Of a stretch of DNA of 64,000 nucleotides, positions 21,670-51,301 are shown piece by piece. Where the stretch lies: positions 81,021,067-81,085,066 of the forward strand of contig OX359245.1 of NCBI GenBank assembly GCA_947179485.1, given 5' to 3'. Under the pieces are notes generated by a model that saw only the letters and a list, made by a program, of their open reading frames with translations, ran no database searches and had not been told where the DNA came from. The first letter of the stretch is position 1, and each line of letters opens with the position of its first letter. This DNA comes from Allacma fusca (lineage: Eukaryota; Arthropoda; Collembola; Symphypleona; Sminthuridae). Both the position numbers and the translations under genes were made by a program.

Positions 21670-21830
21670 GTAGACAATATTTTCCAGAGGCTTGGTTACA
21701 TTTAATAAGGTCAGCCGGGGATGCCGTTCGGATTCTTTAAAAGATTGGATAATTTATTTTTGATTGTGTGATATATGAATGTATGCAACCACTAGATATA
21801 TATGTATGTGACTAGAGGTTTCATTCACTG
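21670..21830 (+). pseudogene. Relic of the eight-cysteine secreted family (exons 3 and 5)
   Basis: After a TTAG acceptor the sequence reads VDNIFQRLGYI and then two stop codons, matching exon 3 of the intact paralogue (TDCIFERLGYI) with the cysteine replaced by asparagine. About 40 bp further on, TGATTGTGTGATATATGAATG followed by TATGTGACTAGA matches the intron 4/exon 5 boundary of the intact copy at 33,870-33,920. Exon 4 is deleted and I found no exon 1 or 2. It is a dead fragment on the plus strand and the copy nearest the satellite. Confidence 0.7.
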
Positions 21831-23637
21831 GTGATAGTTATCTTGAAATGCTAGCAATTTTTATTTAACTATACACTTAGTACTTGCTTAAGCAATAATA
21901 TGTGGGTTAATTTAAAATCATATTTCAGTTGATTGCAATGCATGTCACTTCCATAACTTATGTTGATAATTAGATTTCGAATTGAGTTCTGAATATGTCA
22001 ATTATAAAATAACAAATAAAGGCTTAACATTCGCAGGGTCATTCTTTGTAATTATATAGTATACTATAATAACTATATAATTATATAGTAAACTATAGTT
22101 GATAATAGACAAATATGAGTTCAAAATCATGCAACAGATGACAAAGTCGAGTTCGAGAAAATGACTTGCACTTGGTAATCCATTTTTGAAATTTAAAGTT
22201 ACATTGAACCTTAACATGGCTAGTGTTTTAATTTAAGCATAATGGACAAATCCTCCCTAATTTTATGCTTGTGGTAATGCATAAACTTTTTGGAAAAGTT
22301 CAATTCAGGTTCGGTTCATTTTATTTTCTTCCGCGTAGAGTTCACCCATACTCAGTTCATTGTTATTGGTTATATCATTCACACTTACAATTAGTTCAAT
22401 TCATACGTATGTAGGTATTTTTGAGTACAGTCACGTTCACTCAAATTCACACACATCACAATTCTCGAACATTCACGCTCAGATTATCAATCTCGTCATT
22501 TCTTCAATTTAAACATGAGTATTCAATATAAAGTTCCTATTTTGATTTTGAATGTTATTTTTAGTTGAGAATTATGATTTTTCAGGGGTGTCTTTTGAAA
22601 ATATCTAGTTCTTTGCTGGTTTGAATCAGTTTAAACATTAGAAACTTATACGCTAAATCATAAATCCGTAATAAGTATCCTCACATTCAGTTCAATTGAG
22701 ATCTTTTAACTATACCTAGACACTCGCGTTCATTCACGTTCGTTTCAATTGCCAAATTCAATTCAAACTCATTCGATACATAATTTGATATGTTTGGAAT
22801 TCACTCAAGTTCATTCAACTCCTGAAATATTCCAGAAAATTTCAATAAACAAAAGAGCTCATTGAACTAATTTTTGCATGCATGCTTCTCGTATAAAGTT
22901 GTTCGGAATTCTACGTTGTCTTATATTTCTTGTTGTTTCATTCTTTAAGAGTCGAGTTCTTGCCAAGTTACAAATTCCGATATTCAGTTTCGCAGTTTAA
23001 GTCAAAATAATAATTAATGAATGTATATGATCAAATGATTACTGTTGAGTTGATATTCTCACTTGCTGCAATTATATAAAAGCACTTATAATTTTGATTT
23101 ACATTAGAATTTTTTGCATTTTGACAACAATGGTTTGTAAAATATGTTAAACACATTTTGACATCCCAACAAAATGCACTGGCACTGCTCTAAAATCGTT
23201 TTGATCTTTAGTCCTAGGAAGTTCAAAGGTTTGGAAAACAAAATAAAATAAAATGTATCAGTCATTGAAAACGATGAACGATCAGTTTTTTATGAAATTC
23301 GATTTCTATGTGTGTAACAAAAATTCTCGACAAACTTGGATTAGTTAGCAAGCGTGCAAGAATTGTATAGGGTTTTCCTTACAAAAAGACCTCATCAGCG
23401 AACACCAATTGTTTTACAATTGTTTTTTAGACTTCCAACCATGTATTATTTATTGAAATTGTATTTGAATACCTTTAAAAAAGAATGTATAAAAATTATA
23501 CAATCAAATCGTGGTAAAGCTCCCCAAGGTATTGGCAATTTATTTTAAAGACGCCAATAAAGTTTGTAGAGCCGTTAAATCTGAATTATTATACTTGTAC
23601 ACATTAATGGTGCAAGCTACTTCACAAGAATGCTTTC
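21831..23637. other. Intergenic DNA with TTCA/CATTCA word-rich stretch
   Basis: No gene is supported. At 22,290-22,830 variations of TTCATTCA, TTCAATTCA and CACGTTCA recur many times without a fixed period, giving a cryptic-simple segment. A small palindromic AT tract (TATAATTATATAGTAAACTATA) lies at 22,065-22,100. Confidence 0.5.
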
Positions 23638-24410
23638 CGGGAATACTTCTTCCAAACAAAGGCGAATCACAGACTTAATTAAAGGACTGGTACGACAGAA
23701 TTCTCAGAACAGGTTGGGCGTAGCTGCACTCGGATAATTTTGAGCACAGTCCATTGGAAAATAACTGTATTGTATATAGGAATCACCCAGTTTCATTTTG
23801 AAAATCAGACATTAAATTTTTTTTAAATGAGGATTTCCATTTACATAACAGTTGTTTTATTCTTTGACACGATAGGGAAACGAAGTATTTTTATTTCCTT
23901 TAAAATACAAATTATTATCTAACAACGTGTTTTCATATCGCTCATGGATTCAGATGACGATTACATGTTCCCATTACATCCAGTGACTTGAAATGTTGGG
24001 AACAAGAGATCAGGATGTCATTGAGGCCACAATTACTGTGGTGGAGGGAAAGATCATTTGGTAATCGCAGACCAGTATGTAACAAAATAATTTTCAAATG
24101 GCTTTTTCATTGGAACTGTGCACAAAACCCATTCTCAAGGGACCATTAGCTGAGAAGCTAAAATTGAATTTCTACTTTTTAGATAAAATGCATCATGGAG
24201 AGGCTTGGATATATCGTAAATGGTACGATAAATCAGGACAAACTAGTTGAATCGTACAATAAAACTTTACCTTTACACTTTGAGCACTTTTTTGATCTCT
24301 CTCTCTCTGTATATTCGAATATTAATGTCGTATATTTACTTGGAACTTTTAGGAACATACGTTCACATTTTACAGGGGCACTTGCTGATAATGTCAGATT
24401 ATTCGTTTAA
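23638..24410 (+). pseudogene. Broken paralogue of the eight-cysteine secreted family (exons 1-3)
   Basis: Upstream sequence at 23,638-23,680 (CTTCTTCCAAACAAAGGC) matches the region upstream of the copy at 50,341. Exon 1 (23,827-23,871) still encodes MRISIYITVVLFFDT, a signal-peptide start of the family's exact 45-nt length, but the donor GT has become AT. Intron 1 keeps the family block TTTCCTTTAAAATACAAATT (23,894). The exon 2 acceptor CAG is now CAT. Exon 2 (from 23,937) reads IAHGFR, then a stop where the first conserved Cys should be, then PITSSDLKC, and after a frameshift YCGGGKDHLVIADQ. Exon 3 starts at 24,183 and reads IKCIMERLGYIVNGTINQDK before losing similarity. A possible exon 4 remnant near 24,520 is too weak to claim. 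Several independent lesions make this a pseudogene. Confidence 0.85.
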
Positions 24411-25268
24411 AATTTAAAATGTAGTGAAGTTAAAAGAGGAATTCAAATAAATCTATTTTCTGAATTGTTTTCCAGTTTTGTGTGGCTTAATTTTTTCTGA
24501 CTTTAAGTATTAACAATTGACAGGGTCAAGGAACAACGACAACATTATTTAACTCAGGGTCTACGTTAGTTCATTCATTTTTCAATATGCAAATTTTCTG
24601 TGAATAAACGTTGTCTTGGTGCTAACAATAAGTACATTCTAATGGACTCCATTTTGAAAGGTATACATTTTGTTACCTTAAGTCCTTAGCCGTAATTTCG
24701 TGAGAGAATTGTCTGTTTCTATGATCAGCGATTCCTGGGTTCATAAGTCATTATAACTTCCGTGGGAATAATTATTATTATTCTCTTGGGAGTTATAATG
24801 CCTTATGGGGTCATGATTTGCATGCGCATGGTTATGAAATGTCCATGTTTATAGGAGGTTTGGGACCTGCCTATAGATGCTTATTGAGTATATGTTTTCA
24901 TTGTTTATCAAAAGATCTATTGATTACAACCCAATCAAATTTACAAATGTGATTAGATATTGACAAATGAATCAAAAATTACTCCAAAAGTTAGTCAAAC
25001 TACAAACACAGATCATCAAAGTTTAAAGGATTCATTCTAGTGCTGGAGACTATTCCATGTTCCTGCATTTTGAAGCACCAACGTCAGGTATTGTTTTAGA
25101 TTCAAATATCAAAGCGCTAAAGTCTAACCACTATAAACGTATCATAGTGTATAGATGAGATAGTGTAAGCACTTCCAGTTAAGCGGAAATCATTCAGAAA
25201 CGATTTGCATTAACTCGCCGCATGCAGCGCTGTGGTAACTTACCGCTAGAGAATTTCTGGTCTAACAT
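24411..25268. other. Intergenic DNA
   Basis: No gene is visible. It is AT-rich with no clear repeat apart from a short CTCTCTCTCTCT run just upstream at 24,296. Confidence 0.4.
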
Positions 25269-25319
25269 GTGTTCAGTTGTACTGGTAGTGAAATTCTCTT
25301 ATTTAATAATAAATACTTA

Positions 25320-25545
25320 ACTAACTGTGAATTAAATATATCTTGCTTTGTTTTTGGGTGTAAGCCTGGGTATAATGGATCAAAAACACATTTGTTTAAG
25401 TGTCCAAAACACGCTGATAAATCAGCTTGGTTAAAAATATTCCCAAGAGAGAAATTATTTCCGACTTCAACAAGTCATCAATTTGTCATTTACACTTTGA
25501 AGGGGCACAATTAACTAAAAACAGGGAATACATAATAATACATTA
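25320..25545 (+). pseudogene. THAP zinc-finger fragment, frameshifted
   Basis: From 25,344 the frame reads CFVFGCKPGYNGSKTHLFKC then PKHADKSAWLKIFPREKLFP. This has the THAP layout: C-x4-C, a short loop, an F/P segment, then the invariant W before I-P-R. The end of the domain is out of frame. After a shift at about 25,470-25,480 another frame gives SSICHLHFEGAQLTKN, matching the C-x2-H closing pair of THAP domains (CSxHF). THAP domains are DNA-binding modules of P-type transposases and of genes derived from them. No transposase core follows. It is most likely a transposon relic, although a decayed exon of a host THAP gene cannot be excluded. Confidence 0.65.
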
Positions 25546-26903
25546 CTGAAAGGTATTAGGCCAGTAAAAAGGCCAGTGGATTATTTAAATTCTAATCTAA
25601 ATTATATTCGGACACATTCTGTCTACTGAATACGTGTTTCCCTATTTTCACTAAAGCAATTTAATTCTTTAATATTTTATCTCCTCAGATTTTGTGCAGT
25701 GGGGAGTTAAAAGTACTGGCTCGAGGCAAAAATTTGACGCATAAGTTTCCTTCCTCAAGAACTCCTTCCTTATTGGAACTTGTTGAAATCATTGCCACTC
25801 TGGACAACATGTAGATTTGCGAAGATTTCGAGGGATTTGCGTAGGTTGGAAGATTGGGCAAAGTATCTTAAGTCAACGGAATTAAATATTTACCAAGTTC
25901 TACAAGTTCATCAATGTTTCAAGTGACACGATTGGAATCTGGACTAATTATTTACATTCTTGTGAACGTGTCAAAAATTGTAATGACGGGAATGAGGGTT
26001 CAAGGCAATCTACTAGAACGAGAGAGCTGCCGTAAAAGAGCCTATTGGAACTTTTTAGCTTTAAGGAATTGATAAGGTACAAAAGATTGTGAGTTTATAG
26101 ATGTTTTTGCTTCTTTAGAGTTTACTTTTGTGGGAATCCGCATGTCTGGGGTTTTTATTACAGGCCTAAAATTAGTACAAGTTGAGTATGTAGTATGAGT
26201 GTCATATTAGGTACTACTGAAAAGTCTCAAAATAACCTGTAAACTGTCAGTTCAAATAGGCAATCTCTCTTCCCAGCAGTCAGGTCACGGCCCTATTTTA
26301 ATTGCAAGAGTTATGTTTCTATGTTTTGATACGTTATTATTTTCACTAAGATTCACAATAATGATATTTTATTGAAAACAATTAAATTACACTAGTAATG
26401 TTTAAAGCTTAGTGAGTTTTGTCTCCCATTCATGTATTGTATTTGTTGATTAATTGTATTGTATGAATAATTATATTTTACGGCTATATATATTAAACAG
26501 TTTTTTAATAACTAATTATGTGTCAAATAACAAGCAATGTGGTTTTTATGCATTTTTGATGTATTATTTGATGGATTATACTCATTTACCATGTCAAGCA
26601 TGCAAAAACCGAGCGAAAAGCTACTGAAGCGCCAGCCACCAAAAGTTAAGTAGCGAATCCCGAAACTAGCCATGCAAGTGAATTCACTATCTCTATCTAT
26701 ACACTATGAACGTATCTTCAGGTAGCGCCAAACATTTTTGAATGAAGAGAATACATTATTGAGAGCGTTAAAAAAATTCAGTTGTGAAGAACGCAATTAA
26801 ACACATTGAGTATCGTCTGATTTTTTCAGAAGCCTGGGTTCACATACGTTTACACTTATGATTAGTGGTTTACAATATTTCGGGTGGTTCATGTGAATCT
26901 TAT
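25546..26903. other. Intergenic DNA
   Basis: No gene, tandem repeat or element end is recognised in this AT-rich stretch. Confidence 0.4.
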
Positions 26904-27052
26904 TCAGGGGTGGATTAATAAACTAATTATTACCCTGGTAATAACCCTCAAAATAGGTTTGCAAGCCTTTTTGAATGCAATCTTAGGGTTTTAGCGAAAC
27001 ATTTTTGACCCTGGTCGTACCAGGGTGGGTAATTCCATAAATCAACCCCTGA
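26904..27052. mobile_element. 149-bp MITE with CAGGGGT ends (hAT-like)
   Basis: Left end TCAGGGGTGGATTAAT and right end, read in reverse complement, TCAGGGGTTGATTTAT. The imperfect inverted arms continue inward about 35 bp to ACCCTGGT. Total length is 149 bp with no coding capacity. CAGGGGT termini are typical of non-autonomous hAT elements. The expected 8-bp target duplication is not evident, so the superfamily call is tentative. Confidence 0.65.
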
Positions 27053-27760
27053 TTGTAAGGATCTGTGAACACAATACTCGTGGCTGCATTAATACATTGA
27101 ATTAAAAACTGAACACAACAAACAAAGTGACATTCTCACATCAAAAATATTTGCGTGACCTATTTCCTCTATCTCTATCTATTTGAAAAGCAATGTCGAT
27201 ACTGGGATAATTATAGAGTCATATGTTCTCTGTTGAGAGACACTCGCTCTCACATATCAGCATATGATTTTTCCTTAATAATGCACTGACAATAAATGAG
27301 GATTTAAATATCAATATTTCTTTCAGTGCAGTTGGAACATATATACAAAGACCTTGATTACTTTGATCTTGAATTATTCATTCAGGCACTTCAAGAAAAA
27401 GTGGGGGACAACATTTTTTAATTAATTTTAATTACTTTGCAAGGCTTGCTTACTTGCATTAAATGCATTTGTGTACATACAAGATTACACTTTATTTTGC
27501 TTAAGCTGGCTCATTTACGTCCACATGCAAATTATAAGTCTTCTAATTTTTTGAAATCGTTTTAGTTTTAAAGCAATGCTTCCACAAAAGACACCGCAAT
27601 TGAATCTTACATATTGGAACCATATTCTTACAGTAGTTCTTGGAAAAGGATCGATTTGTTCTTTGATTTTTAGTCTGGTCTGGTCCAAACTTAGGACCAT
27701 TCAGCGAGGTATGTTCCACAACTTTGGAACAAACAACATTTTCCTGTGGAATTACTGGTT
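27053..27760. other. Intergenic DNA 3' of the LINE
   Basis: No gene is supported. Short overlapping frames at 27,515-27,797 on both strands share no protein-like features and end at the LINE tail. Confidence 0.4.
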
Positions 27761-30700
27761 TAATGTAATGTAATGTAATGTAATGCTTTATTGTCAAGTC
27801 ATCTCAGCGCAAGCACTGATTTCCAGATACAGACAGTGATATATATATTTAAATATGAACACACTAAGTTTGAAATTTATAGTTTCTTAAAAGTACAGTT
27901 ATAATCAAATTTACTCGGGAAGCAAGAAGGGGATCATTTTCGACTTTTAATTAACCATTTACTTATTTCAAACTGAAAATCTTTAATATTAGAGAATTGG
28001 TGGATACTATTAGGAATCATATTCCAAATCTTCGCAGATCTATATTGGAATGAATTGTGAAAAAATGAGGATGAGAGAGGAATTGTAAGGAAATGGCCAT
28101 GGCGGGATTGTCGGGTTCGTACTGGTTTAGTGATTTCCAAGAAACATGTGAGTTTATCAGGTTGTTTAAGGATGGTTTTCGTGATTGAAGCCATAATATA
28201 AGTATACCTCTCAAAGATACTAAGAATACTGAACGATTCATACAGATTATGTAGGTCAAAGGATTTCCGCTTTGTGGATTTTAAGTATAAAAAGGAATTT
28301 ACAGGTTTTAAGAAATCAAAACTATATCCTTTGAAGGAGACACATTTGAGGAAATGATCAATAGTGTTTTGGCATTTCTGTAGTGAGGAGTTAGAAACGG
28401 CACCCCATATTGGAAGTCCGTGGTCAATGTGAGAAAAAACTAGAGATTTAAAAACAATATTGAGGAGTTTTGGGGTTATGAATCTTTTAAATTTTACAAG
28501 ATTGTGACATTTAAATGATATTTGTTTGTTAACATAATTACAATGCTTTTCAAAATTGAGTGTAGTGTCAAGTATGATACCTAAGTATTTCAATTCATCA
28601 ACTTTGTGAACAGATTGGCCATTACAATATATTTTATCGTATTTAAAACATTGTTTGGCCCTCGGACGGGCAAATACCATAAACTCAGTTTTAAGGAAAT
28701 TAATTTCCATATTATTTTCAACACAGGAGTTGTGGATTGTAAGAAGTTCTTTTTCAAGTTTTTCTTTCAGTCTGAGTGGATCTTTAGAAGTACAAACAGA
28801 CCCAATATCATCAGCATAAATAGCAGAGTCAATAAGAATGTTACACAAATCATTAAGACATATGATAAATAAAACAGGGCCAAGTACACTTCCCTGTGGT
28901 ACCCCACCGTTAAGCTCATATGGCTTAGATACATAGGTTCCAAGTTTGATACAGTATTCCCGTCCAGATAAGTAGCTACAGATAGTTCTTAATAAATAGT
29001 TTGGTAAATTATAGACGTATTTTAGTTTATGTATTAGTTTTAGGTAATTGACACTGTCAAAAGCTTTTTTTAGGTCAACAAACAGGACTGCAGTAAGTTC
29101 CTTGTTTTCTAAAGCTTTGCAAATTCTATGAGAGAGGTCAATAAGCGCATAAGTTGTGGATTTACGTTTACGGAAACCATATTGGTTTTTCGAGAATAAT
29201 TTTAGAGTTTCCATATGATAAATAATTCTGTTGGCCAGGATGGATTCAAATACTTTGGATACAAATGGAAGAACCAAAATTGGTAAGTAGGACTGTGGTG
29301 CATATATACTGTTTGAGCCTTTTAAAATAGGGGTGATAATAGCCGACTTCCAGTTGTCAGGATATTTGCCTGTAGATACAATATAGTTAAATATATTAGT
29401 TAGTACAGGTGCAAAAATGTCAGTATGTTCTTTGAATATTTTAGGGGGGATACAGATCAGGGTGTTGCCATTGCTGCCTTTGGTGTTTTTTAATGATACA
29501 CATACTTCTTCTACAGTAATAGGATTACTCAGTGTATCATGAGCTATAACATTTGCAAAATTATTCAAGGCAGCATCAGCGTTCACATGATCAAGTACAA
29601 AGGCTTTTGACAGTTCATTACAAATTTTCTCTTCCTCTACGATAACAGATTGGCCTATCCTAAGCTCAGTAATATTTGTAGATTTTAGCTTATCGCCTAT
29701 TAGGGATTTAAACATATCCCAGGATTCTTTAGGAGTTTTACAGTTAGAGAATTTGGAAAAGTAATATTTATATTTATCTCTACGAGTATGTTGAGTTGCT
29801 AGGTTTCGGCATTGTTTATATGAAGACCAAGCTTCACCGGTATTACTTTCACAAGCTACACGTTTCAGATGAGATTGCTTATGTAAAGTTTTCTTAGTGT
29901 TAGCACTTAACCAAGGTACAGGTTTACTTGTAATACATCTCTTTACAAGTGGAGCAGTACCGTCCAAGGCTGAAAGCACAAGGTTATTCATAACATTAAC
30001 TTGGTCATTTACAGAGTCAAATGAAGGTATAATCTCCCATTTACAAGATGATAGCACATTACATAATTTGTCATGAGTAAGAGTTTTATAATTACGGGTT
30101 GTAATTACAATCGGGGAGAACTTGATTTTAGGTTTCTTTCTTACTACATAGATTATATCGTGATCTGAGATACCACATTGTAAGACACCACACGACCGGG
30201 CATAGCTACCACAATTAGTGTATATATGGTCAATTAAAGTCCGAGTCAGCATAGTGGTACGGGTGGGATGCACGATTAGTTGTTTAAGGTTAAGTCTATT
30301 ACAGCAGTTCAGGAGATAGTTGGAGTTATTACTACGTGTTGATAGATCAACATTAAAGTCTCCTAAGATATAATTCTCCAGGTATTTATTTTGAAGGAGA
30401 AGATAATGTTGAGAGAGTTCTAATAAGAAATTGTCGTCAAGTACAAGGTGTCCAGGCGGTCTGTATATAGTAAAGATAGATAATGGTCGAGTGTGAGGAA
30501 GTGTAATAGAGATTGAGAGGCATTCAACAGAAATCATGCAATCAGTGAGTAATTCAACATTGAGGTTTTCTTTTGCATAGATTACTATTCCACCCCAATT
30601 GGATATTTGCCTATCTTTTCTATAGAATTTATAACCTGGGATTTGTATACAGCTATCAGAAATGTTACCGTTGAGCCATGACTCCGTTACACACATAATG

Positions 30701-31560
30701 TCAGCATTGTAGTTGTTCATTAATACTGTCAGTTCATCTACTTTAAGTCTAAGGCTGCAGATATTAACATGCATTATTGTAAAACCTTTAGCTAGAGATT
30801 GAGAGGCAAATGATTTTTCTTGAATAATTGAGTCTTCAGATGCAAAGAAGGAGTCATTGTTATTTCCTAGAGTCCGTAGGAAAGTATCGATGTTAGGATT
30901 GGCCTGAAGTTTACATTTAAAACAGGTCCATGTTTGGGATAGGATAAGATCCTTGAACTGCTGATTAGATAGAGGTAGTTTCAAGCAGTTGGTATTGTGA
31001 AACAGAGTGTGACAAGTTATGCATTTGATAGCTAACTTACGGCCATCTGCTTTTTTGCATATTTCGCAAATTGCATTGTGACCAGCCTTGTAGTAGTAAT
31101 TAGACATATTTATTATAGCCAATAAATGAGAAATTAAATACTGTAATAATAATACAAACGATAATATAACTAAAAGAAGTGAGTTTAGAATTTTAACATA
31201 GCCTGGTTGAGTTATCCTTAGAGGTCGGTCCTAGGCTATTGAATCTAAGATGTGAGCTCAGGTTGGTTGGTAAAGGCGTCTTCTGGCGGCTAGGAAAGAT
31301 TTGCGTTCCAGAAATGTTGACTGGTCACGAACTGGAAACAGCAGCCAGTAAGTGATCCAAATGTCCCACGGGGGTACAGATGGGCCTATAGCCGTGACAT
31401 TACGGCGTCAGGGTACCGGCAGCCCTTACAGCTGGTTAAATCCAATCAGTCGTGTCAGTTAATGATGCCGCCAGAAGCAGGCCCGAACTTACTTAATGAA
31501 GAATTGGCTCAAGAGCCATAGCTTGTTAATACCTCTCAGCTCGGCAGTCTGAGAGGGAAT
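27761..31560 (-). mobile_element. Non-LTR retrotransposon (LINE), CR1/L2/Jockey-like
   Basis: The element lies on the minus strand. It has an intact ORF, a 3' UTR of about 150 bp containing an AATAAA signal (complement of 27,786-27,793), and a 3' tail of five TAATG units (27,761-27,785) instead of poly(A). Short tandem-repeat tails are known in CR1/L2-type LINEs. Upstream of the ORF (31,123 to about 31,560) there is a GC-richer segment unlike the flanking DNA, read here as the 5' UTR. The exact 5' boundary is not defined by the sequence, and I could not find a target-site duplication. The uninterrupted ORF suggests recent insertion. Confidence 0.9.
27934..31122 (-). CDS. LINE polyprotein: PHD finger, AP endonuclease, reverse transcriptase
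   Basis: This single 1,062-residue ORF has no internal stop. Residues 19-70 form a complete C4HC3 PHD-type zinc finger (C19, C22, C34, C37, H42, C46, C67, C70), presumably for chromatin or nucleic-acid contact. Residues about 113-325 are an apurinic-type endonuclease that nicks target DNA: N120, E147 in TESWL, Y220 in YRPP, D255 and N257 in GDFNVDL, and ISDHD at 318-322. Residues about 585-840 are the reverse transcriptase, with FVDLKKAFDSV (D683), GGVPQGSVLGPVLF and the catalytic IYADDIGS (D771, D772). The C-terminus has no RNase H. All visible catalytic residues are present, so the protein may be active. Many CR1 elements carry the PHD finger in a separate ORF1; here it is fused to ORF2 and no ORF1 is seen. 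The first ATG gives the intact finger. Confidence 0.95.
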   Translation of the reverse strand: MAIINMSNYYYKAGHNAICEICKKADGRKLAIKCITCHTLFHNTNCLKLPLSNQQFKDLILSQTWTCFKCKLQANPNIDTFLRTLGNNNDSFFASEDSIIQEKSFASQSLAKGFTIMHVNICSLRLKVDELTVLMNNYNADIMCVTESWLNGNISDSCIQIPGYKFYRKDRQISNWGGIVIYAKENLNVELLTDCMISVECLSISITLPHTRPLSIFTIYRPPGHLVLDDNFLLELSQHYLLLQNKYLENYILGDFNVDLSTRSNNSNYLLNCCNRLNLKQLIVHPTRTTMLTRTLIDHIYTNCGSYARSCGVLQCGISDHDIIYVVRKKPKIKFSPIVITTRNYKTLTHDKLCNVLSSCKWEIIPSFDSVNDQVNVMNNLVLSALDGTAPLVKRCITSKPVPWLSANTKKTLHKQSHLKRVACESNTGEAWSSYKQCRNLATQHTRRDKYKYYFSKFSNCKTPKESWDMFKSLIGDKLKSTNITELRIGQSVIVEEEKICNELSKAFVLDHVNADAALNNFANVIAHDTLSNPITVEEVCVSLKNTKGSNGNTLICIPPKIFKEHTDIFAPVLTNIFNYIVSTGKYPDNWKSAIITPILKGSNSIYAPQSYLPILVLPFVSKVFESILANRIIYHMETLKLFSKNQYGFRKRKSTTYALIDLSHRICKALENKELTAVLFVDLKKAFDSVNYLKLIHKLKYVYNLPNYLLRTICSYLSGREYCIKLGTYVSKPYELNGGVPQGSVLGPVLFIICLNDLCNILIDSAIYADDIGSVCTSKDPLRLKEKLEKELLTIHNSCVENNMEINFLKTEFMVFARPRAKQCFKYDKIYCNGQSVHKVDELKYLGIILDTTLNFEKHCNYVNKQISFKCHNLVKFKRFITPKLLNIVFKSLVFSHIDHGLPIWGAVSNSSLQKCQNTIDHFLKCVSFKGYSFDFLKPVNSFLYLKSTKRKSFDLHNLYESFSILSIFERYTYIMASITKTILKQPDKLTCFLEITKPVRTRQSRHGHFLTIPLSSSFFHNSFQYRSAKIWNMIPNSIHQFSNIKDFQFEISKWLIKSRK

Positions 31561-32283: not shown

Positions 32284-33938
32284 ATGAACATGTTTATTTA
32301 CATTGCTGCGATTCTGTTTACTGTCTCGGTAAGTAATTCAAACATATAAATTTGACTATTTCGTGTAAAATACGTGGTAAATAATTTCCGCAAGAATTTA
32401 CAATATTTATAGTAATACTATCATCTGCAATACTCGGTGCCATAGTAAGGAAAAAAATCCGTCGAATAATTTTTATTTCCTTTAAAATGCAAATTAATAT
32501 TCTACCAAGGTGTTTTCAGATCGCTCAAGGAGACAGATGCCGATTTAATCTTCCCGTGACGGCCAGTAACATCAAATGTGAGGACCAAGTGTACCATAGG
32601 ACTCCTAGCGCCATAGCAGCTGTTAATGCCTGTGGTGAAGGGAAAAATGGATCTGAAATAACGATCACGGATGTAAGTTACAAAACATAGGTTTCTCGAA
32701 AATTATATAGACAAACATACAATTGACTGTCATCATAATCACGTCCCACGCTCAAGAATATTTTGTCCCTCATGAGACATGTATATGCCATACAAAACAA
32801 TTGATGTAGATCATTTTTCCCCTCTAGGGACGACATTACTTTCAAATCGAAATGGCTTTCAAGGGAACCATTTCATGTATATGACATGCATATAGCGGAA
32901 AACACATCTTATACAAATAGATAAATTAAGGAGTAATAATTTCAATACATAGACTACTCCAGCTTCAGATAAATCCTGTTTTTTATTAGGTATTGATATG
33001 ATTAGTTGAACTTTCAGCAAATGTTTTCATTAACAAACATGTCATTGAATAAGTAAAATTCCAAGAACACTTATTTCATGATTTACACTCATTGTAAGCT
33101 CAGTATACAATCGTTTGCTTTTGTATGGGATGCTAAACATGGTTCTTGAACTTACCATGAAGCGTTTGTTTTTACACCCAGAGAATGGAGCGATACTTAT
33201 ATTACAATGTTATTGTAGATGAAAACATTGAATGGTGCTTATTACAGAATGCTTTAGCTTGTCAATAAACGCACAAAAAACTTGCAGCAAGGACGTTGAA
33301 ATGACGATTTTTCACAACTCTCACAGTAACAACCCAGGAGCTCTTTGCCTGTCTAAAAAAATTTATTTTGTATATGCTTCTTTCTACGGTTAAAATGATT
33401 TAGAAAGTAGTTAAGGTATAGGATTGGCATGACATCCGCGATTCACGTTAATATTTGATTTATATTCTTTTAGACAGACTGTATTTTCGAGAGGCTGGGC
33501 TACATTTACGATGGCAAATTGCAGCCGCATATATTGTTAGCAGTTAACAAAATTAATTTTCCTCGTCATTATGAAGCTCTAACGAAGGGAACCACTGCCT
33601 GTGCTGCAGGTATGAGTACTGACATAAAACATGGAATAAAATTGTCTTATAGTTGCTTAGTTATTTATGTCAAATGTTCACAATTCTCCTGCGTTTTTGT
33701 ATTTGGTATAGCAAACACCAAGGAGACGGATGACGTAGACCCATTCAAACACGTCGAATGTCGTTTGAGAGTTTTCAAAGAGGTATATTGACAAATGTTT
33801 AATTCTTAATTATTATCTCAAAGTCATTTCATAATTATTCTGACATTCGTGAGAAAATTACTCACTTTATTATTTATTGTGTGACATATGTAGGTCTGCA
33901 AACATGAGACATGTGACTGGATGAATACGTTGGATTAG
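32284..33938 (+). CDS. Secreted eight-cysteine protein, OBP-like (intact, copy 1)
   Basis: Five exons: 32284-32328, 32520-32672, 33474-33609, 33712-33782 and 33894-33938, with GT..AG introns in phases 0, 0, 1, 0. The product is 149 residues. Exon 1 encodes a hydrophobic signal-peptide start (MNMFIYIAAILFTVS), with cleavage likely after AQG. The mature part has eight cysteines (22, 35, 53, 69, 109, 128, 137, 142) and motifs CGEGKNG, CIFERLGYIYDGK and DPFKHVECRLRVFKE, ending CKHETCDWMNTLD. The LGYI-DGK helix and the DPxxxxxxC segment recall insect odorant-binding proteins (C-x3-C..LG..DG.., DPC..A..C), which carry small hydrophobic ligands in extracellular fluid. Here the OBP cysteine after DP is Phe. 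Exon structure and spacing agree with copies at 38,956 and 45,307, which supports every splice site. OBP-like function is inference; secretion is well supported. Confidence 0.88.
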
Positions 33939-37226: not shown

Positions 37227-37240
37227 CTCATACGCTGCAG

Positions 37241-38955: not shown

Positions 38956-39856
38956 ATGAAGATTTCAATTCACACAGCAGTTGCTCTATTTTGTGCTACG
39001 GTAAGGACAGGAAATTAATTTTTTCCATAATTTTTTGAATTTCCTTTAAAATGCAAATTTGAAATCTTCAAAAGTGTTTCCAGTTCGTTCAAGGAGAAAA
39101 ATGCCGATTTAGTTTTCCTTTGCCTGAAAGTAACCTAAGATGTAAGAACTCGACATACCCTGTAGAAGCGGAATACCTAAATGCCGTCAATTTCTGTGGA
39201 ATCCACAGAAATGGAACTGAAATCACCGACCAAGACGTAAAATAAATAATCTTCAAAAGGATATTTTATAGAAACGGTGACAGGCACGAGTAATCTCAGT
39301 ACGCTATTAGTTTGAAATTTCAAAGTAAATCCGCATTTGTGTTTTAGATCCGTTGCATCTTAGAGAGGGCGGGATACGTCACAAACGGCAGAGTTGCCTC
39401 TTCCACGAATGATTATATCATGAATACTTTCAGTGACACAGAGCTTCTGAATGGCGTATATCGGTGTGTATTAGGTATGATCACGAATTTCTGACTTCAA
39501 TTATATTTGATAGTACTTTAGAGCAAACGTATGAAAACAATAAATGGGACGTAACCACATTAACCTTTACTATTAAAGATTTCATGAATTGACCCTTCCA
39601 CAACTGCTCTGTCAAAATATTCTAATAATGTTTCTTTGTAAATAACACAGAAAGCTTCAAAAATACCGATCAAAAGAACCAGTTCGAACACGTTAATTGT
39701 CGTTTCAATGTTTACAAAGACGTTAGTTAATAATGTTTTTTATCACGAGTTAACTGAAGTTATTTCCACGATATTATGTGAAAATCTTAAATTATTCTGT
39801 GAATTCTGTAGGTCTGCGGTTACAAGACGTGTGACTGGATAACTACATTTGATTAA
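38956..39856 (+). CDS. Secreted eight-cysteine protein, OBP-like (intact, copy 2)
   Basis: Five exons: 38956-39000, 39084-39236, 39348-39474, 39651-39721 and 39812-39856, with phases as in the copy at 32,284. The product is 146 residues. The signal peptide is MKISIHTAVALFCAT. Mature cysteines are at 22, 35, 53, 69, 106, 125, 134 and 139. Visible motifs are KCRFSFPLPESNLRC, FCGIHRNGTEITDQD, RCILERAGYVTNGRV, FEHVNCRFNVYKD and VCGYKTCDWITTFD. Donors after exons 2 (GTAAAA) and 4 (GTTAGT) are weak but sit at the family positions. The linker of exon 3 is three codons shorter than in copy 1. Intron 1 carries the block TTTCCTTTAAAATGCAAATT (39,040). AATAAA at 40,026 is a likely polyadenylation signal, 170 bp after the stop. 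An OBP-like extracellular carrier role is inferred from weak motif resemblance only. Confidence 0.88.
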
Positions 39857-40500: not shown

Positions 40501-41862
40501 ATCCACTTCATTTTCCAAAACCCATAATACCCGTGTAGTAACCGCACCTATTTATACAAACATTACCCGTACACTGGACGAGCACTGATGCAGAGATCAC
40601 CGTGTTTTTAAGGTAAACACGTTTTAATGACTAGAATGATGAACAGAAAAGACCAGATGCCTTTTAACATGTACAATGGTAGTCGCATATCAAGTTTGGT
40701 TCCAACCAAGTTGGTTTTGACCCGTAAGTGACCTCGCTGCGATATAAATCCCAAAACGGTCTTCTTACCCAAACTTTATAGGAAAACTTCAGAATAGCGT
40801 TAATAAAACTACATCTTTTAAAGAGTCAAGTTTCATGGAACGGAAAGTATGAGGATAAAGTCATGTGAGATCTGTATCATTCATATTTGTTTGCTGGATT
40901 GGGGTGAAATTACGCCTGTTAAGCAATTTCGTTGGATAAAAAGTACTGTAAATGGAGAGCATACTATGAAACCTCGTTCTTTGCATAACACACATGCACT
41001 TGCATTGTATGAATTATTTAGGCTCTTAATGCTGTGTACAATTGTTTGATATTAAAATGGTCAGTAGATACTTGATGACCCGTTATTGCAGGGAACCTTT
41101 TTTACCTGTACCAACATCTACAGTGTATAGGTCTGCCAATTCTGTATTTATATATAAGTATATATTAGTCTTAAAGTAATTGTCAATAGGTCTTAAAATA
41201 ATCCGTATTATTAATGAGGAATACTTGTCCATTTATTTACTGTTTAGCGTGCCATTTTAAAAATAAGAGTTCAAGGTTTTGGCATGTAATAAGTCCACGA
41301 CATGGCTTGAGCCGTTTAGCTTTTAATTTCTTAACAGAGCTTTCACTAATTTTTAAGAAGTAGTACGATAAGCATAATGTAATACTGGCTTCTATGCACG
41401 TAGTGTTTACACTGTAATAATGACATGAAATTTATACCTGAATGACCTTCAAGCAGAATGTAATAAAAATTCACGAAGCAAAACGTAACGTTTATACAAA
41501 GTGGTGTCAACATATTTTATTGATGTTAACAAAGATTTTAGAGCCGTAAAATTAGACAAAGGAAATTCATATACAATTCCCTTTAATAAATTATCTAAAT
41601 GTTCCACAAACTTTATTTACAATTATCTAGCACCACTTAACGAGGGTCGAGTACGGTGTAACGAGCTACTTCACGCACCGTGCTTTTCATTAGCATTTCT
41701 TGCAAACAAAGATGAAGTAGCAGACGTAATGATCCTTTACATTATAAAATTGATGTTCATCGCAAAATATAATTCATTATCTTGAGCATAAATCATTGAT
41801 GAATAAGGGTAACAGACTTATTCAGTTTCAGTTTGAACTTCAAGGCAACCCAGTTGCTCCAG
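40501..41862. other. Intergenic DNA
   Basis: No gene is supported. TTGGTTCCAACCAA (about 40,698) is a perfect 14-bp palindrome. Open frames at 40,849-41,049 and 41,501-41,785 have no recognised domain. Confidence 0.4.
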
Positions 41863-41907
41863 ATAAAGATTTCCATTTACACAGTACAGTCGACTCTCCT
41901 TATAGCG
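41863..41907 (+). pseudogene. Exon 1 relic of the eight-cysteine family
   Basis: Exactly 45 nt align with family exon 1, but the start ATG is ATA. It then reads KISIYTVQSTLLIA and is followed by TAAAAA where the donor GT should be. Upstream TTCAGTTTCAGTTTGAAC resembles the initiator region of the copy at 50,341 (CTCAGTTTGAACTTGAA). No later exon was found, so this is an orphaned first exon with its promoter. Confidence 0.7.
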
Positions 41908-42754
41908 TAAAAATAAAATTAATGAAGGGGAAATTTTGATTGAATTTTCGCCTTCGATGGTTTCAAGTAAGGCTATGTTCTTTGCGCATCTCTGGAACTA
42001 CTGGATCCCAACTTAATACTATTTTCAGTAAAATCGTGAGTGAATAAGGTGGTTCTATTGTTATTTTCAGGTTAATTTTGGTTTGTTTGTTTACTAGGTA
42101 TAATGTAAAAACCAACTACGAATACAATCCGAACCGAATTCGAGCCGTTTCTGAAATTTTAATTAAAAGTCAAATAGAATTCAAATTCACATTTTTTGTC
42201 TTCTTTGGTTAGAGGATTCCAATAGTCCTATCAAAATGATTTGAATAAAAAACCGAATGCGAATTCACATATAAAAAATCCAAAACTTCAATCGATTCAT
42301 CGATTGCAATAGAAGCGAAGCACGGATTTCAAGGTAGAGAAGATATTTTTACAACCTTAGTGATCAACGAGTATGTTCCTGTGGTTAAACCAGGTTTAAA
42401 CATCAATTCAAAGGTTTTTGAAATAGAAAATTTGAAAAAAAATTTCCGCAATAGTCACCGTTAAATGCATGGAATACTGCGGACCTGAATAATAATGTTT
42501 GCAATGTTGTATCGCTATATATTTTTAATGTAAACTTAAATGTTTCATGATATGTTTTCTTTTAATTATTAAGATACTTTACCTTGCATTTCTTTGTTTA
42601 AGTGTGACCTTTGGAAACATTTTGCCTCACAAGAATTTTATGCCAAACTTAGAGCTAGGCTCCAGTCATGTGTTGACATTTTTCAATGGTTTCTTATTCA
42701 GTAATGTTTTTTAATGATACAATTTGCATTTTGGTTCAACATTTCCAATGGTAA
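41908..42754. other. Intergenic DNA with CGAATTC/CCGAA word cluster
   Basis: At 42,110-42,310 the words CCGAATTCGAG, GAATTC, TCGATTCATCGATTG and CCGAATGCGAATTC recur irregularly. It is similar in style to the AACCGAA segments near 60.7 and 61.4 kb. No gene. Confidence 0.45.
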
Positions 42755-42939
42755 CCTCGGTCTTCACACTATGGAAGTCACGGGAACATTAAATCGACAT
42801 ATGTTTATTTGATTAATTTACAACTATTGTAAATAAAAAGTTATTTCAATATTTTTTACCCAAGTGCCAATATTGTACCCTTACATTTAAATACCATGTT
42901 GGAAAGGAAAACCGTTGCAGAGTAAATAAAATTTTCCAT
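42755..42939 (-). pseudogene. Minus-strand broken paralogue (exons 1 and 2)
   Basis: Exon 1 (42,895-42,939, minus) is still open for 15 codons, MENFIYSATVFLSNM, with a GTATTT donor. Exon 2 begins at 42,817 (minus) and reads INQINICRFNVPVTS, aligning with IAQGDRCRFNLPVTA of copy 1. Its acceptor AG has become AA, and a stop codon follows two codons after PVTS. Downstream similarity is lost and exons 3-5 were not found. It is a decaying copy oriented like the intact gene at 45,307-46,267. Confidence 0.75.
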
Positions 42940-43560
42940 TTTGGTAGTCGTGAAAATTTTTTAACTACAAATAGGTAACTTACAATTTAATCTCTGCGTA
43001 TATTTTTCTTTCTTGCGCCGAGAATACTATGGTAATATACTATTATTTTGAAGGAAATCTTAGTTACTAATTTTTTATATACGAGTTTAAACAGTATTAA
43101 CTGTAAATAACCTTAGTAACTGACCATTGATGTAAATGCAAGCAATGGTTTGTAACCATTGAAAAGATATAATGCCATGTCATAAGGCGTCCGAAAAGCT
43201 GGTAATTCTAGTACATGCCGCCCAAGCCATAAGGTAGCTAAATATACGAATTTCAAATGCAAAACTCATTTTCATAGGATAATTTCGGCATACTAAATAT
43301 TGAATTAATGACGATACTATCAGAAGTGTCGGTCTAGAGTAGAGCAATTGGGAGGTTAAATTTTGCTGGTAAGCTCGCAAAAAGCCCGGACTTTGGGTGG
43401 CTACGGATACACATTATTACGCTTGAGAGGTTACGGGCATGAAAGGTCTTTTTATCGTGCTTAAAAAAACGTGAAAGCCCGTACGAGTCCGTAAAAAATT
43501 CCATGAGTTGCGCATGCAGGAGCAGCGGTTGAGAAAGTTCATACAATAAAGCCTCATTAT
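42940..43560. other. Intergenic DNA
   Basis: No gene is recognised. Minus-strand frames at 43,180-43,546 show no domain. Confidence 0.35.
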
Positions 43561-44060: not shown

Positions 44061-44470
44061 ACAAATTTCAAACGTTACTAATTTTAGCATTGAAAGAAAC
44101 CACGACTTTGTGTACGGTACTTCCTGCCATTATTGTGTATAGATTCATGCCTGCCTTTGTTATTTAGTAAATTTCATTTCGGTCTTCATTACTGTGAAAA
44201 ATAACAGTTACTCCAGAAGATGCATCCAGACAGTAGTTCACGATTTTTTAATAAAAACGATCTATATGATTAAAGGAAGAATATAGTAATCTTACACGCG
44301 CAAAAACCTGGCAGAAGAAGAAGGCTGCTCAAAATTAGAAGGGATATTATTGAAGTAAGATTTCCTCAGTTTTGTCTGCTTAATACTACTATTTACGATA
44401 AGTCCAAGCGTCTCCATGATATAATTAATCTAAAAAGTAGAAATTCAATTCTTTTCCTTGCCCTGGCACA

Positions 44471-45306: not shown

Positions 45307-46267
45307 TTAATCCACCGTATTAATCCAGTCACAGGTAATGTGGCCGCAGGCCTATGAAAATTCACATATTAGTTTTTAATTGTTACATGCAATGTCCGAA
45401 AAGTTGTGAAATGTTTTAGTTATTTAACTGTTTACATCCCTGGCATTAGGGAAGTAGACATATAGCAACTCACTAGAACATAAGCATTCATAAGACACGT
45501 AATTCTTGAGAGTGGGTCCTTAACATCGTCATTATCCGAGTCTACAATTATTACAATTTAATAATTACAAACATTTCCAAACCAAACGTATCAAATATTT
45601 CAACATTGGCTGAAAGATCCATAAAATATTTTAAGTATTAGGATTCATGTTGTGCGACATGTCCTTTATATGTCACACCTATAGATCCTGTGCTGACTCA
45701 ACATGTTACTAAATTACCATCTCATATATTATATATAATTGGCGGCAGAAATTAAAAGTTATACCTGTAAAACAATTCAAGGTCTTTTCAAAAAGACTGA
45801 CACCATAAGCTCCGAAAATCTTACGAAACTCGTCAAGCAGTTTTCCCACCAGAATGTGGCCGTTTATACTGTACCCCAGCTTGTCGAAGATGCATGTAAC
45901 CTGAGAAGTAGGAATTTAATTTTAAAGTCTCAGCTTACAGCGTACTGAGGGCGCTCATTCAATTCATTCTTCCATTAAAGCACCACAAATTATTTTGTCT
46001 TACATCCTTGTTGGTGATTTCAGCCCCATTTTTTCCTTCGCCACAGAAATTGGTAGCATTAACTGCATTCTCATCTCTCTGCACTATCAAGCCCCCACAT
46101 CGTAAGAATCTTGAAGTAACGGGAACTTTGAATCGGCATTGTCCTTGAACGATCTACAAAAATTTGTTAAACTATTACTTTGCAAAACAATGACAAAATT
46201 CCTATCCATTTTCTTTCTTTACCGTGACGCAAAATAGAACCACTGCTATGTAAATGGGAATCTTCAT
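45307..46267 (-). CDS. Secreted eight-cysteine protein, OBP-like (intact, copy 3, minus)
   Basis: Five exons on the minus strand: 46223-46267, 46004-46153, 45765-45900, 45474-45541 and 45307-45351, again in phases 0, 0, 1, 0. The product is 147 residues. The signal peptide is MKIPIYIAVVLFCVT. Mature cysteines are at 21, 34, 52, 68, 108, 126, 135 and 140. Motifs are QCRFKVPVTSRFLRC, FCGEGKNGAEITNKD, TCIFDKLGYSINGH, DNDDVKDPLSRITCLMNAYV and ACGHITCDWINTVD. Intron 1 is only 69 bp and lacks the conserved block of the plus-strand copies. All splice sites are canonical. It is closest to the broken copy at 50,341 (shared VPVTS, CGEGKNG, CGHITCDW and 68-nt exon 4). The upstream region is duplicated at 44,471. 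The role is probably as extracellular binding protein; only secretion and the disulfide-rich fold are clear from sequence. Confidence 0.9.
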
Positions 46268-47742: not shown

Positions 47743-47818
47743 TATTTGTTTTGCGTTATCTAGTTGCTTTTCTGTGGGTTTCGTCCAAATTTAAAGCAAC
47801 TAGATAACACAAACAATA
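47743..47818. repeat. Hairpin: 16-bp perfect inverted repeat
   Basis: GTTATCTAGTTGCTTT (47,755-47,770) and AAAGCAACTAGATAAC (47,793-47,808) are exact complements around a 22-bp loop. The arms extend imperfectly outward (TTTGTTTTGC / CACAAACAA). It lies within the THAP-containing element. It may be a nested small inverted-repeat element or a structural part of the host element. Confidence 0.75.
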
Positions 47819-48322
47819 TAAACTAACAATGGCCATTCAAAACTAATTTATTGCAACCCGGATCTATTGCCACAGAACCTTCGTCCACGGATCAAAATGA
47901 CAGACCGAAAAGCAATCTCTACTTTATTTTACGGGCTACATTTCGTTTAAATCAAATTAAAAGGTAGGTACAAATAAATTTGGATTTGCTGGTTGTTTCG
48001 GGTCAATAAGAGGAACTTCATGCTGTCTCATAGAGGGTTTTGTAATTTGAGCAATTTGCGAAAAGCTGCTCCGTATTTGATTATTCTGAAGGTATACGAC
48101 TGAAATAATATATATGAATTTTGAAAGGAAAATAAAACTAATTATTGTCGATTTCTTTTAACTTTAATTAAGTACTTTAAGTACTAATTAGCGTCGCAAA
48201 GAATGGGATGAAAGACACTTGTATACAAGTGTAGCGAATGGATGAGAAATTTCTCATCTTCCCCCGTGACGTCACCATAGTGAAACTCCGCCCTCTTTTC
48301 TGCTGTGTAGGGATTGTCGCCC

Positions 48323-49060
48323 CGTTGTTTTCAGGGAGGATTTCATTAAAATAATTTTTCTGTAAAAAGTCTCGAGTTTAAACTTCTACAATATCTCAGT
48401 CATCGCCCAGATGGTTCCAAAGAAATCAAATAGTATTTATACTTGGGGTTACATATATACCAAACCGTAAGTAAGAACATAGTGACAACGTAGACAGCGT
48501 CGGCGGGTCAAATCATTTTGGTTATATTTTGGGTTGCCTTTTCGGGTAGACAAAGCATTATTTGCACATTGGTTATTCCTCGCTTCAGGACCTATCAAGG
48601 GATAAGGGCTGTCAGGTAAGAGCTCGAATTCTTTTATATAATTTCTTAACTCATAAAAATTGTCTCCTAAAGACAAATCGATCTGGACACGTTGAATCAT
48701 ATTGTTTTTAGAATTTTACTGTTTAAAAAATAAACGTGTTTATATCTTCATATAAAGACCGATTGGCCAAAATTCAACGAAAGTTTGAAATGGTTGCGAA
48801 TAAACATTGTAAGTGAAATCCAAGTCTTGAAGCAAGACATGAGTGCGATTCTTTCAAAAACAATTGAAAAAACCAACGTCAAAATATTACTTGAATGTCA
48901 TGTGAAAGTGTCGATTGGGGTAGTTTGAGAAAATTCAATTGTACTGTCTGGAAAACAAGAATTCGCAAAAATATTTTAGGGGCAAGCTAGGAGAATCCGT
49001 AATAATCACCGTTAAATACAAACATTACATAAGATCTGAAACTGGATACTTTGTAGCGAG
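48323..49060. other. Intergenic DNA
   Basis: No gene is established. An 83-codon minus frame (48,449-48,700) contains one C-x2-C pair but no known domain, and I cannot place splice sites around it. Confidence 0.35.
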
Positions 49061-49330
49061 TTGTGTTTCTTGTCAATTGCAAGTTAACCGAAATTACAAA
49101 TTAAACTTGCAAGTTCGGTTCAATTGCGGTTATTTTACACCAAGGAATTGCAATGGTCTGTGCAAGTGCAATTTCGGTGTACTTAGATTGCAATTAGAAA
49201 AGCATTTAATACTCGCAATTACCGGTTAAGTAGAACTGAAATTGCAAGAAATTCAATTGCAGTTACAAATTCTTGCACTGCAAAAAGTTGCAAATTAAAA
49301 AATACTTCCTAAGTTAATTGCAACTTGCAA
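49061..49330. repeat. Cryptic-simple segment rich in AATTGCAA/TTGCAATT
   Basis: Many irregular copies of CAATTGCAA, TTGCAATTG, AATTGCAACTTGCAA, AAATTGCAAG and ACTTGCAAGTTC occur in both orientations. Because the word and its complement alternate, the segment can fold in many registers. The open frame 48,939-49,229 overlaps it and is not accepted. Confidence 0.65.
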
Positions 49331-49959
49331 CAGTTTCGAATTTGAGCGCAAAATTCCACAAAATGCCTAAATAGGCCGTTCCGCTCTAATAACCAATGTA
49401 AATAATAATATATAGTATTGTCGCAACGAGTGTAATTACTGTACTGGCTGTACAATTTCGTTGGTGAGGACGCGAATTTAGGCAAAATTTATCTAAGTGA
49501 AATTTTGATAAGCATGAAAATTATAGAAAAATTAAAATAATATTTTAAGGGTTTTTTGTAAAGACATGCTGAATGATGAAATATTACAATATTTTAGCCT
49601 TGGAAGGCGCATAGAAAGACTTCCATTTGTGGATCTCGGTTGCATTATGCATTGCAACTACATTTCCAATAAACCCTGTCAAACCACGGATTTTATTGTT
49701 TTTTTCGGCAATATTGCTTCAATGATCAACTTATTCGTTTCACTGTAGTTTTTGTTATGCACAGACCACATCAGTGAGCATTGCTGTTTATCATTATTTT
49801 TGGGCTTCCAAGGTCCTATTTGTTGTAACGATTGTATATGAATACATTCAAAAACCAACATAAAATTTTCAAATTCCTCAAGTAATGTCAAAATATTTTA
49901 GTGAATAGGGTTCTGAAGGTCGAATGAATTGAGTGTACGCAGAAACATGTATTTGTCAA
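49331..49959. other. Intergenic DNA
   Basis: No feature is recognised. Short frames at 49,566-49,891 overlap each other on opposite strands and lack domains. Confidence 0.35.
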
Positions 49960-49975
49960 TTTGATTCCAATCACA
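49960..49975 (+). promoter_or_regulatory. Upstream dyad of the broken copy at 50,341
   Basis: TTTGATTCCAATCACA differs from the dyad TGTGATTNNAATCACA by one base in the first half. It ends 366 bp before the ATG and is followed by CCATCACTTCATC. The initiator-like CTCAGTTTGAAC lies at 50,305. Confidence 0.55.
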
Positions 49976-50340
49976 CCATCACTTCATCTTTTGCACTTCA
50001 ATAGTCGAAATGTTGTAATCAAACTTCGGTGACTAACGTAATTTCCAATTGATTAACATCACAATGATACGAGTGGAATTAATGGAGCAAACTATACCGC
50101 ACAATTCTTTTCCAGGAGTGTTTCTTCCAAACAAAGGCAAAACAACAGACTTAATGGCCCTGCACCTTCATGAATGGACGTTCATCGAGAAAAACTGGCT
50201 TTTAATTCACAGTTGGCATACAAATTTAAGAATTTTTAGAATAGGTTGGACTTATCTTCAAGCATACAATTTTAGGCAAAGCGTGAGTACAAGAATTATC
50301 CCGTCTCAGTTTGAACTTGAATACCACCAAGTAATTCAAA

Positions 50341-51301
50341 ATGAAGATGTTAATTTACGCACCTGCAGTTCTATTTTGTACCACGGTAATGAATTGCAAT
50401 GGGTAGAAATTTGATTATTTCCTTTAAAATGGAAAGTAAAAAATGGCCCAAATATTTGCAGATTGTCCATGGACATAGTTGGTGATTCAATGTTCCTGTG
50501 ACTTCGAGTAATTTGAAATGTAGGGACTTTGTATTCTACAGAGGTCAGGATGCCTACGACGCTACCAATTCCTGTGGTGAAGGAAAAAACGGAACTAAAA
50601 TAACCAGCCAGGATGTAAGACAAAATGATTTGAAAATGATTTTTATTGGAAGAGTACATTGTACTAGGGCTCTTACAATCCGTACACTGTTAGGTAGGAA
50701 GTTGAAATTGATTTTCCACATTTTATATACATGGTATCTTCGAAAATATTGAATACAATGCAGACGGTAATATAATGTTGGCAAATGGATGATGTCATAT
50801 ATGAAAAATTTCCCTTTTGACATGCGATGGATTTATGAAGGAACCATCGGGTGTAGAGCAAGTAAAGTTACAAATTTCTGCCTTTAATCATTCTAGCTCG
50901 TAATTTATTAGCATATTGGTTAGCAGGGGGCTAGGGATGAGGATAAAAACGAAATACTGTAATCCCATGATTCTTTATCCTTAAACAATTTGATGAGTAC
51001 ATCTTTCACCAACTTTTGAACTATTTGGTAACTTTTTGTAAAATGTTTAATTTCTAATTGCAAATGACACAGTTACCAAGGGAGAAGCAGACATAGACGG
51101 ATTTGGACTAGTTAAGTGTCTTACGCTTATGTATCCAAATGTGAGTGGTCATCTGTTTGCTTTCCTAAATAAAAGGATGAAAACAGCTAGCTAAGACATT
51201 TTTACTTTTTCGGGCATCCCATGTAACGATTTAAAAGATTTTTGTAATTTGTATAGGTCTGCGGACACATTACCTGTGACTGGATTGACACGTTGGATTA
51301 A
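50341..51301 (+). pseudogene. Broken paralogue of the eight-cysteine secreted family (five exons)
   Basis: All five exons can be placed. Exon 1 (50,341-50,385) encodes MKMLIYAPAVLFCTT. Exon 2 (50,462-50,614) reads IVHGHSW and then TGA at 50,483, where copy 1 has CRF: the first conserved cysteine is Trp and the next Arg codon CGA became a stop. The rest of exon 2 is intact (SSNLKCRDF, SCGEGKNGTKIT). Exon 3 (about 50,727-50,861) has lost its acceptor, reads IFENIEYNADGNI, then needs a frameshift to reach FPFDMRWIYEGTIGCRA. Exon 4 (51,073-51,140, GEADIDGFGLVKCLTLMYPN) and exon 5 (51,257-51,301, VCGHITCDWIDTLD) are open with canonical splice sites. AATAAA lies at 51,475. It has lost function recently, because regulatory and terminal parts are preserved. 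Confidence 0.88.

Follow-up and report, generated by a model that had tools for sequence, protein, structure and literature searches.

An array of intact and decaying eight-cysteine genes with probable affinity to odorant-binding proteins towards one chromosome end of Allacma fusca

What is the family of small five-exon genes that occurs, partly intact and partly broken, on both strands of a 64-kb stretch of chromosome C1 in the collembolan Allacma fusca (C1:81021067-81085066, in the following the window; the genome comprises 393 Mb)? An earlier reading of the letters of this stretch (the sequence-only reading) had described a birth-and-death cluster of a secreted eight-cysteine family, possibly chemosensory. 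The family reaches far past the window, and the genes probably encode small secreted proteins of the odorant-binding protein (OBP) superfamily, which are likely to carry small ligands and to evolve by birth and death. Of the chemosensory proposal the superfamily level is supported, by way of modest OBP matches.

The window contains three intact genes, copies B, C, and D, distributed over both strands. Each is built of five exons without internal stops, with GT-AG borders at all introns, intron phases of 0/0/1/0, and exon lengths of 45/150-153/127-136/68-71/45 nt. The spliced products comprise 149 (B), 146 (C), and 147 residues (D), and in pairwise protein comparison the identity to B is 38% for C and 40% for D. 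All three share eight mature cysteines, for which none of them had been picked, and C and D contain one additional cysteine inside the signal exon. The exon number, phases, common exon lengths, and eight cysteines proposed by the sequence-only reading therefore hold for these copies. The genes were delimited by reading the exons from the sequence, and the single exons by the sequence together with exon profiles of the 17-gene set described below. Copy B (32284-33938, plus strand) has exon 1, with a putative signal peptide judged by eye and a phase 0 donor, at 32284-32328, exon 2 at 32520-32672, exon 3 with a phase 1 donor at 33474-33609, exon 4 at 33712-33782, and exon 5 including the stop at 33894-33938. 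The exons of copy C (38956-39856, plus strand) are located at 38956-39000, 39084-39236, 39348-39474, 39651-39721, and 39812-39856 (including the stop), and those of copy D (46267-45307, minus strand) at 46223-46267, 46004-46153, 45765-45900, 45474-45541, and 45307-45351 (including the stop).

Genome searches with copy D and with a paralog gave at least 54 and at least 72 matches, respectively, each of them on chromosome C1. Grouped by hand via exon 2 (E up to 0.01), they form at least 36 family places between 76.20 and 81.56 Mb, 5.4 Mb of one arm; this number is a lower bound because only the best candidates were scored by the search. Chromosome C1 has a length of 81.89 Mb and ends in 720 bases of TTAGG repeats; the distance of the family places from this tip ranges from 0.33 to 5.7 Mb. 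Among the 31 of the 36 places that were examined, 17 were judged to be intact genes and 14 were not. The spliced-gene finder gave 24 distinct models scoring at least 300, from which seven were excluded to obtain the 17-gene set: L016 and L051 with an interrupted exon 1, L008 and L015 without a family-like exon 4, L014 with lost cysteines, L043 with a shortened exon 2, and L011, which has a good score in every exon and was modelled without the fifth cysteine. L006 (score 292) is also outside the set. The 17 kept genes score from 438 to 707, while 60 shuffled versions of 30 loci never exceeded 3.4, and 84 overlapping stretches from elsewhere on the same arm, read on both strands, never exceeded 24.4. 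They share the same exon structure, with lengths of 45, 150-153, 127-136, 59-71, and 45-57 nt, a median identity of 42%, and eight mature cysteines each, a constancy that is partly a product of the gene choice. Exon 1 comprises 45 nt in all 17 and, judged by eye, appears hydrophobic. At codon positions 1, 2, and 3 the base entropies average 0.88, 0.80, and 1.07, which is the ranking expected of coding sequence. Twelve of the 17 members have an N-x-S/T sequon at column 58 of the alignment, which is residue 58 in copy B. The tree of the 17 proteins, with 3 of its 14 inner branches well supported, gives little of the order of the duplications.

The resemblance to OBPs comes from two different libraries. 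When the profile of the 17 genes was compared with solved structures, seven matches were obtained at E up to 10, and the top four are OBPs or an OBP-like carrier, namely 6jpm (OBP4, E 0.0049), 5dic (0.069), 1c3y (THP12, 0.076; we take this Tenebrio protein to belong with the Minus-C OBPs), and 3r72 (ASP5, 0.14). The sixth match is a D7 salivary protein (E 0.84); the D7 proteins are part of the OBP superfamily. L021 alone, searched at E up to 1, has 6jpm as its sole match (E 0.011). The Pfam profile PBP_GOBP matches six of the 17 members, the best with an E of 1.8e-4 and 22.0 bits, which equals the gathering score. In single scans of ten members five match at 16.8 to 22.0 bits, and in four of the five members with coordinates the matched stretch extends over the sixth cysteine, which aligns close to the end of the profile (113 positions). 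Judged by these comparisons, the OBP match is modest but consistent.

The same alignments relate the cysteines of the family to those of the OBPs. In copy B the spacing is C-x12-C-x17-C-x15-C-x39-C-x18-C-x8-C-x4-C, and in both the Pfam and the structure alignments cysteines four to six are aligned with C3, C4, and C6, respectively. By distance the second cysteine would be the best candidate for C1, given 33 residues to the C3-like cysteine in B versus 30 in ASP1, and the first, third, seventh, and eighth cysteines would then be extra to the OBP pattern. The classic pattern of six cysteines with C2-x3-C3 and C5-x8-C6 is absent, and the C-x8-C that is present aligns as C6 and a later cysteine. 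To read the sixth and seventh cysteines, which also form a C-x8-C, as C5 and C6 was considered and rejected, because both alignments put the sixth on C6. Minus-C OBPs, which are defined by fewer than six cysteines (PMC3428353), share with the family the loss of C2 and C5, seen in 17 of 17 members, but differ from its eight mature cysteines, likewise 17 of 17. Plus-C OBPs, if defined by a count of more than six (PMC3428353), would include all 17 members, but their published spacing with C2-x3-C3, C4a, and C6a (PMC2808328) does not occur in the 17-gene set, which has no C-x3-C and other distances. An identity as OS-D chemosensory proteins, whose four cysteines follow C-x5-8-C-x18-19-C-x2-C (PMC2808328), was rejected since this pattern is absent from the family. 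By alignment, the layout fits neither classic, Minus-C, nor published Plus-C OBPs and falls between the named classes, and we assign the family, on its sequence features, as a probable variant of the OBP superfamily. The eight-cysteine pattern found no counterpart in the literature titles, abstract openings, and parts of papers that were covered, which does not show it to be unpublished.

Under the OBP-superfamily reading, exon 1 would encode a signal peptide that is followed by an OBP-like domain without the C2/C5 pair and with added cysteines, eight in total. The domain may fold into helices around a hydrophobic pocket as in OBPs, with four disulfides, and, judging from the family match, could act as an extracellular carrier for small hydrophobic molecules. 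The copies might drift or be selected for other ligands via exon 3, which encodes the C3-to-C4 stretch. The array grows by tandem and segmental duplication towards the chromosome end, and copies are lost through deletion, splice-site loss, nonsense mutation, and insertion.

Many steps of such a turnover can be seen side by side. With the 17-gene exon profiles (E up to 0.1) the window contains nine family places, the three intact genes and six broken ones, where the sequence-only reading had counted at least eight copies within 30 kb on both strands, three intact and five or more broken. Copy A (23820-27112, plus strand) retains traces of five exons. Its exons 1-3 are found at 23820-24292 (31.3, 70.2, and 61.0 bits), with the donor of exon 1 and the acceptor of exon 2 missing and exon 2 shifted out of frame, and probable exons 4 and 5 follow 2.5 kb downstream at 26757-27112 (12.6 and 25.7 bits). 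Copy E (50326-51306, plus strand), also with traces of five exons, has kept exons 1 and 5, while exon 2 contains an in-frame stop, exon 3 is degenerate, and exon 4 is eroded. Further remnants are an orphan exon 1 that has lost its start codon (41844-41886, plus strand, 15.1 bits), exons 1 and 2 of another copy (42745-42944, minus strand, 19.2 and 24.9 bits), and an exon 3 in which one family cysteine is changed (44324-44447, minus strand, 22.8 bits). Exons 1-2 of the latter appear to be deleted because the upstream flank of copy D adjoins its exon 3, and as parts of this flank are common to copies A and E, the duplication units include flanking sequence. The sixth place is a weak exon 3 remnant (21679-21736, plus strand, 11.0 bits, E 0.0082), placed at 21658 by the exon 3 profile built from the three window genes (12.8 bits), and the three-gene profiles also give a still weaker exon 5-like trace at 21763-21816 (plus strand, 10.1 bits, E 0.028). 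These two traces are the poorest evidence of the set, and the cluster start at 21670 given by the sequence-only reading leans on this weakest remnant. For exons 1 to 5 in turn, the best scores of the three-gene profiles in ten shuffled windows were 10.1, 9.7, 6.5, 8.2, and 7.3 bits; in the real window, the weakest matches counted as remnants have 9.5 to 16.2 bits with these profiles.

Decay at different stages, as had been proposed, is thus borne out by the orphan exon 1, the lost donor and acceptor of copy A, the nonsense codon of copy E, and the apparent deletion of exons 1-2. Birth and death are likewise reflected in the coexistence of intact, decaying, and fragmentary copies, in a recent inverted segmental duplicate, and in a broken pair 5 kb apart with equal profile scores. 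This pair, L027 (80.824 Mb) and L029 (80.819 Mb), has identical scores and positions in the exon 1-2 profiles, which suggests a recent tandem duplication of an already dead copy. Two other copies, L051 (77.972 Mb) and L016 (78.020 Mb), have different insertions of 690 and 1255 bp, respectively, at the identical place in exon 1. Each insert has CAGAGCTG/CAGCTCTG as its inverted ends, together with a direct repeat of 8 bp, and the two share no similarity with each other (blastn, E up to 1e-3). Direct repeats of 8 bp are a mark of hAT transposons.

The segmental duplicate allows comparing exons with introns. Copies B, C, and D (81.053 Mb plus, 81.060 Mb plus, and 81.067 Mb minus) recur 3.1 Mb away as D', C', and B' (77.964 Mb plus, 77.972 Mb minus, and 77.978 Mb minus), with the gene order kept and inverted. 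Selection across the three intact copies, which the sequence-only reading had named as a test, differs between the pairs. The pair B/B' is clearly constrained, with 12 differences in 450 exon positions and 97 in 1200 intron positions (p 3e-5; omega 0.36). The pair C/C' leans towards constraint: exons differ at 24 of 439 and introns at 37 of 460 positions (p 0.14); exon 1 of C' is interrupted, and exons 2-5 alone differ at 16 of 396 positions with an omega of 0.41 (6 synonymous and 10 nonsynonymous changes). D/D' shows no constraint, with 17 of 444 exon and 18 of 517 intron differences (p 0.86) and an omega of 1.32 (3 synonymous and 14 nonsynonymous changes).

Some other close pairs differ more in their exons than in their introns. 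In ten close pairs, which were hand-chosen and not all independent as genes recur between pairs, the nonsynonymous divergence of exon 3 exceeds the intron divergence in five (p below 0.05), is significantly lower in B/B' only, and does not differ significantly in four. Within the trio at 80.909, 80.915, and 80.950 Mb, the divergence of the whole exons is higher than that of the introns in all comparisons, with p values of 0.084 (not significant), 5e-4, and 4e-8. The last value belongs to L017/L041, whose exons differ by 24.8% and introns by 10.7%, with only 4 of the 45 bases of exon 1 changed. Such a pattern would fit OBP-superfamily proteins used outside smell, secreted into saliva, venom, haemolymph, or seminal fluid, similar to D7 or THP12, with a host, prey, or mate driving their diversity. 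The carrier THP12 and the D7 protein among the seven structure matches point in the same direction, and we regard such a role as a serious possibility, albeit short of probable. However, the D7 match is weak, the exons of B/B' are clearly slower than the introns, and conversion between paralogs could also yield fast exons. Since the synonymous divergence of the exons is also raised above the intron level in some pairs, gene conversion from other paralogs competes with positive selection as an explanation.

A bolder version of the OBP-superfamily reading can be put forward only tentatively, and we consider it less likely than not. The family might be a new OBP class, in which two additional disulfides would hold a Minus-C core in a constant frame of eight cysteines, while positive selection would diversify the pocket-lining exon 3 at a higher rate than the adjacent introns, in an arms race or by ligand tuning, within a 5.4-Mb near-telomere array.

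Several observations weigh against the OBP-superfamily reading. No member has a cysteine at columns 65 (C2) and 117-120 (C5), a single one of the 17 attains 22 bits, the gathering score of the Pfam profile, and only the best structure match (6jpm) is below an E of 0.01, with the unrelated RIB35 (E 0.35, fifth) and NDUTT3 (E 0.89) also among the seven. The three spliced window proteins, whose search against OBPs had been proposed earlier, have no OBP match in the Pfam scan, and their three-protein profile finds no OBP among the solved structures; OBPs come to the top there with the 17-gene profile. Three classic OBPs, compared with the family profile to profile, produced no match (probability 0.4%), and neither did a six-frame genome search with PF01395, the latter being weak evidence because of the introns and a silent control. 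The corresponding search with PF02949 was likewise empty with its control silent, so that absence is shown for neither profile, and that with PF03392 (OS-D) gave three matches. To these points add the unconstrained D/D' pair and the share of gene choice in the constancy of the cysteines. With the weak scores, the empty comparison with classic OBPs, the missing C2 and C5, and several cysteines without an OBP counterpart, one could suppose a separate disulfide-rich secreted family that resembles OBPs by chance or convergence. Yet this is improbable, since the searches of Pfam and of solved structures agree on OBPs and on the register of the alignment, and the distance between cysteines four and five, 39 in B and 36 in C, is within the C3-C4 range of every six-cysteine pattern tabled in PMC2808328.

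That the array is mostly neutral debris of a repeat-rich chromosome end with few functional duplicates is very improbable: six of the nine window places and 14 of the 31 examined places (overlapping sets) are not intact and the omega of D/D' exceeds 1, but 17 open five-exon genes with eight cysteines at 42% median identity, in a set partly chosen for completeness, are hard to explain without selection, and the exons of B/B' evolve more slowly than the introns.

A single satellite array occupies the first 20 kb of the window (1-19932), with a unit of 38 bp repeated about 525 times. Between copies A and B, a long open frame on the minus strand (27934-31230) belongs to a non-LTR retrotransposon; it encodes an endonuclease domain and a reverse transcriptase domain, along with a PHD-finger-like stretch that scores below its cut-off. 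A PIF1-like helicase fragment on the plus strand (55450-55800) is presumably Helitron-like. Scans of the window for Rfam families and tRNA genes found none.

If the genes encode OBP-superfamily proteins, as we think probable, standard searches miss the family: the window proteins have no Pfam OBP match and the exons are merely 45-153 nt long. Should diversifying selection act on exon 3, the alignment of 17 genes with their introns would provide a test bed for the diversification of a pocket on a fixed disulfide frame. In the inverted duplicate, the three genes of the window are available as recent pairs.

In general, birth-and-death evolution, C-minus arrays, and OBP expansions have been described from Drosophila (PMC2258175), fire ant and honey bee (PMC3031547), Nasonia (PMC3428353), and a sawfly (PMC10542623). 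Thus, birth and death and the expansion of OBPs are known themes, and the cysteine layout is the part that we have not met described in the accessible parts of this literature. The D7 salivary proteins are similar in being secreted members of the OBP superfamily, but match the family only weakly (E 0.84). With the Plus-C OBPs the family has in common more than six cysteines, some of them past C6, but it is without C2-x3-C3 and its spacing is unlike the published pattern (PMC2808328). Nasonia vitripennis encodes 90 OBPs, which are clustered and include pseudogenes and cysteine losses, often of C2/C5 (PMC3428353). Its expansion is comparable in being a large clustered set with pseudogenes and frequent C2/C5 loss, and in splice sites that fall between codons and after the first base (Figure 1 legend, PMC3428353), as in the family; in contrast, the accessible part of that paper describes neither Plus-C members nor an eight-cysteine class. 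Among the Minus-C OBPs, OBP14-21 of the honey bee form a tandem array (PMC3031547). The family differs from this class in its eight cysteines, the extra ones mapping to one before the C1-like, one between the C1-like and the C3-like, and two past C6, but it shares with it the loss of the C2/C5 pair, the tandem arrangement, and, over C3 to C6, its best sequence match.

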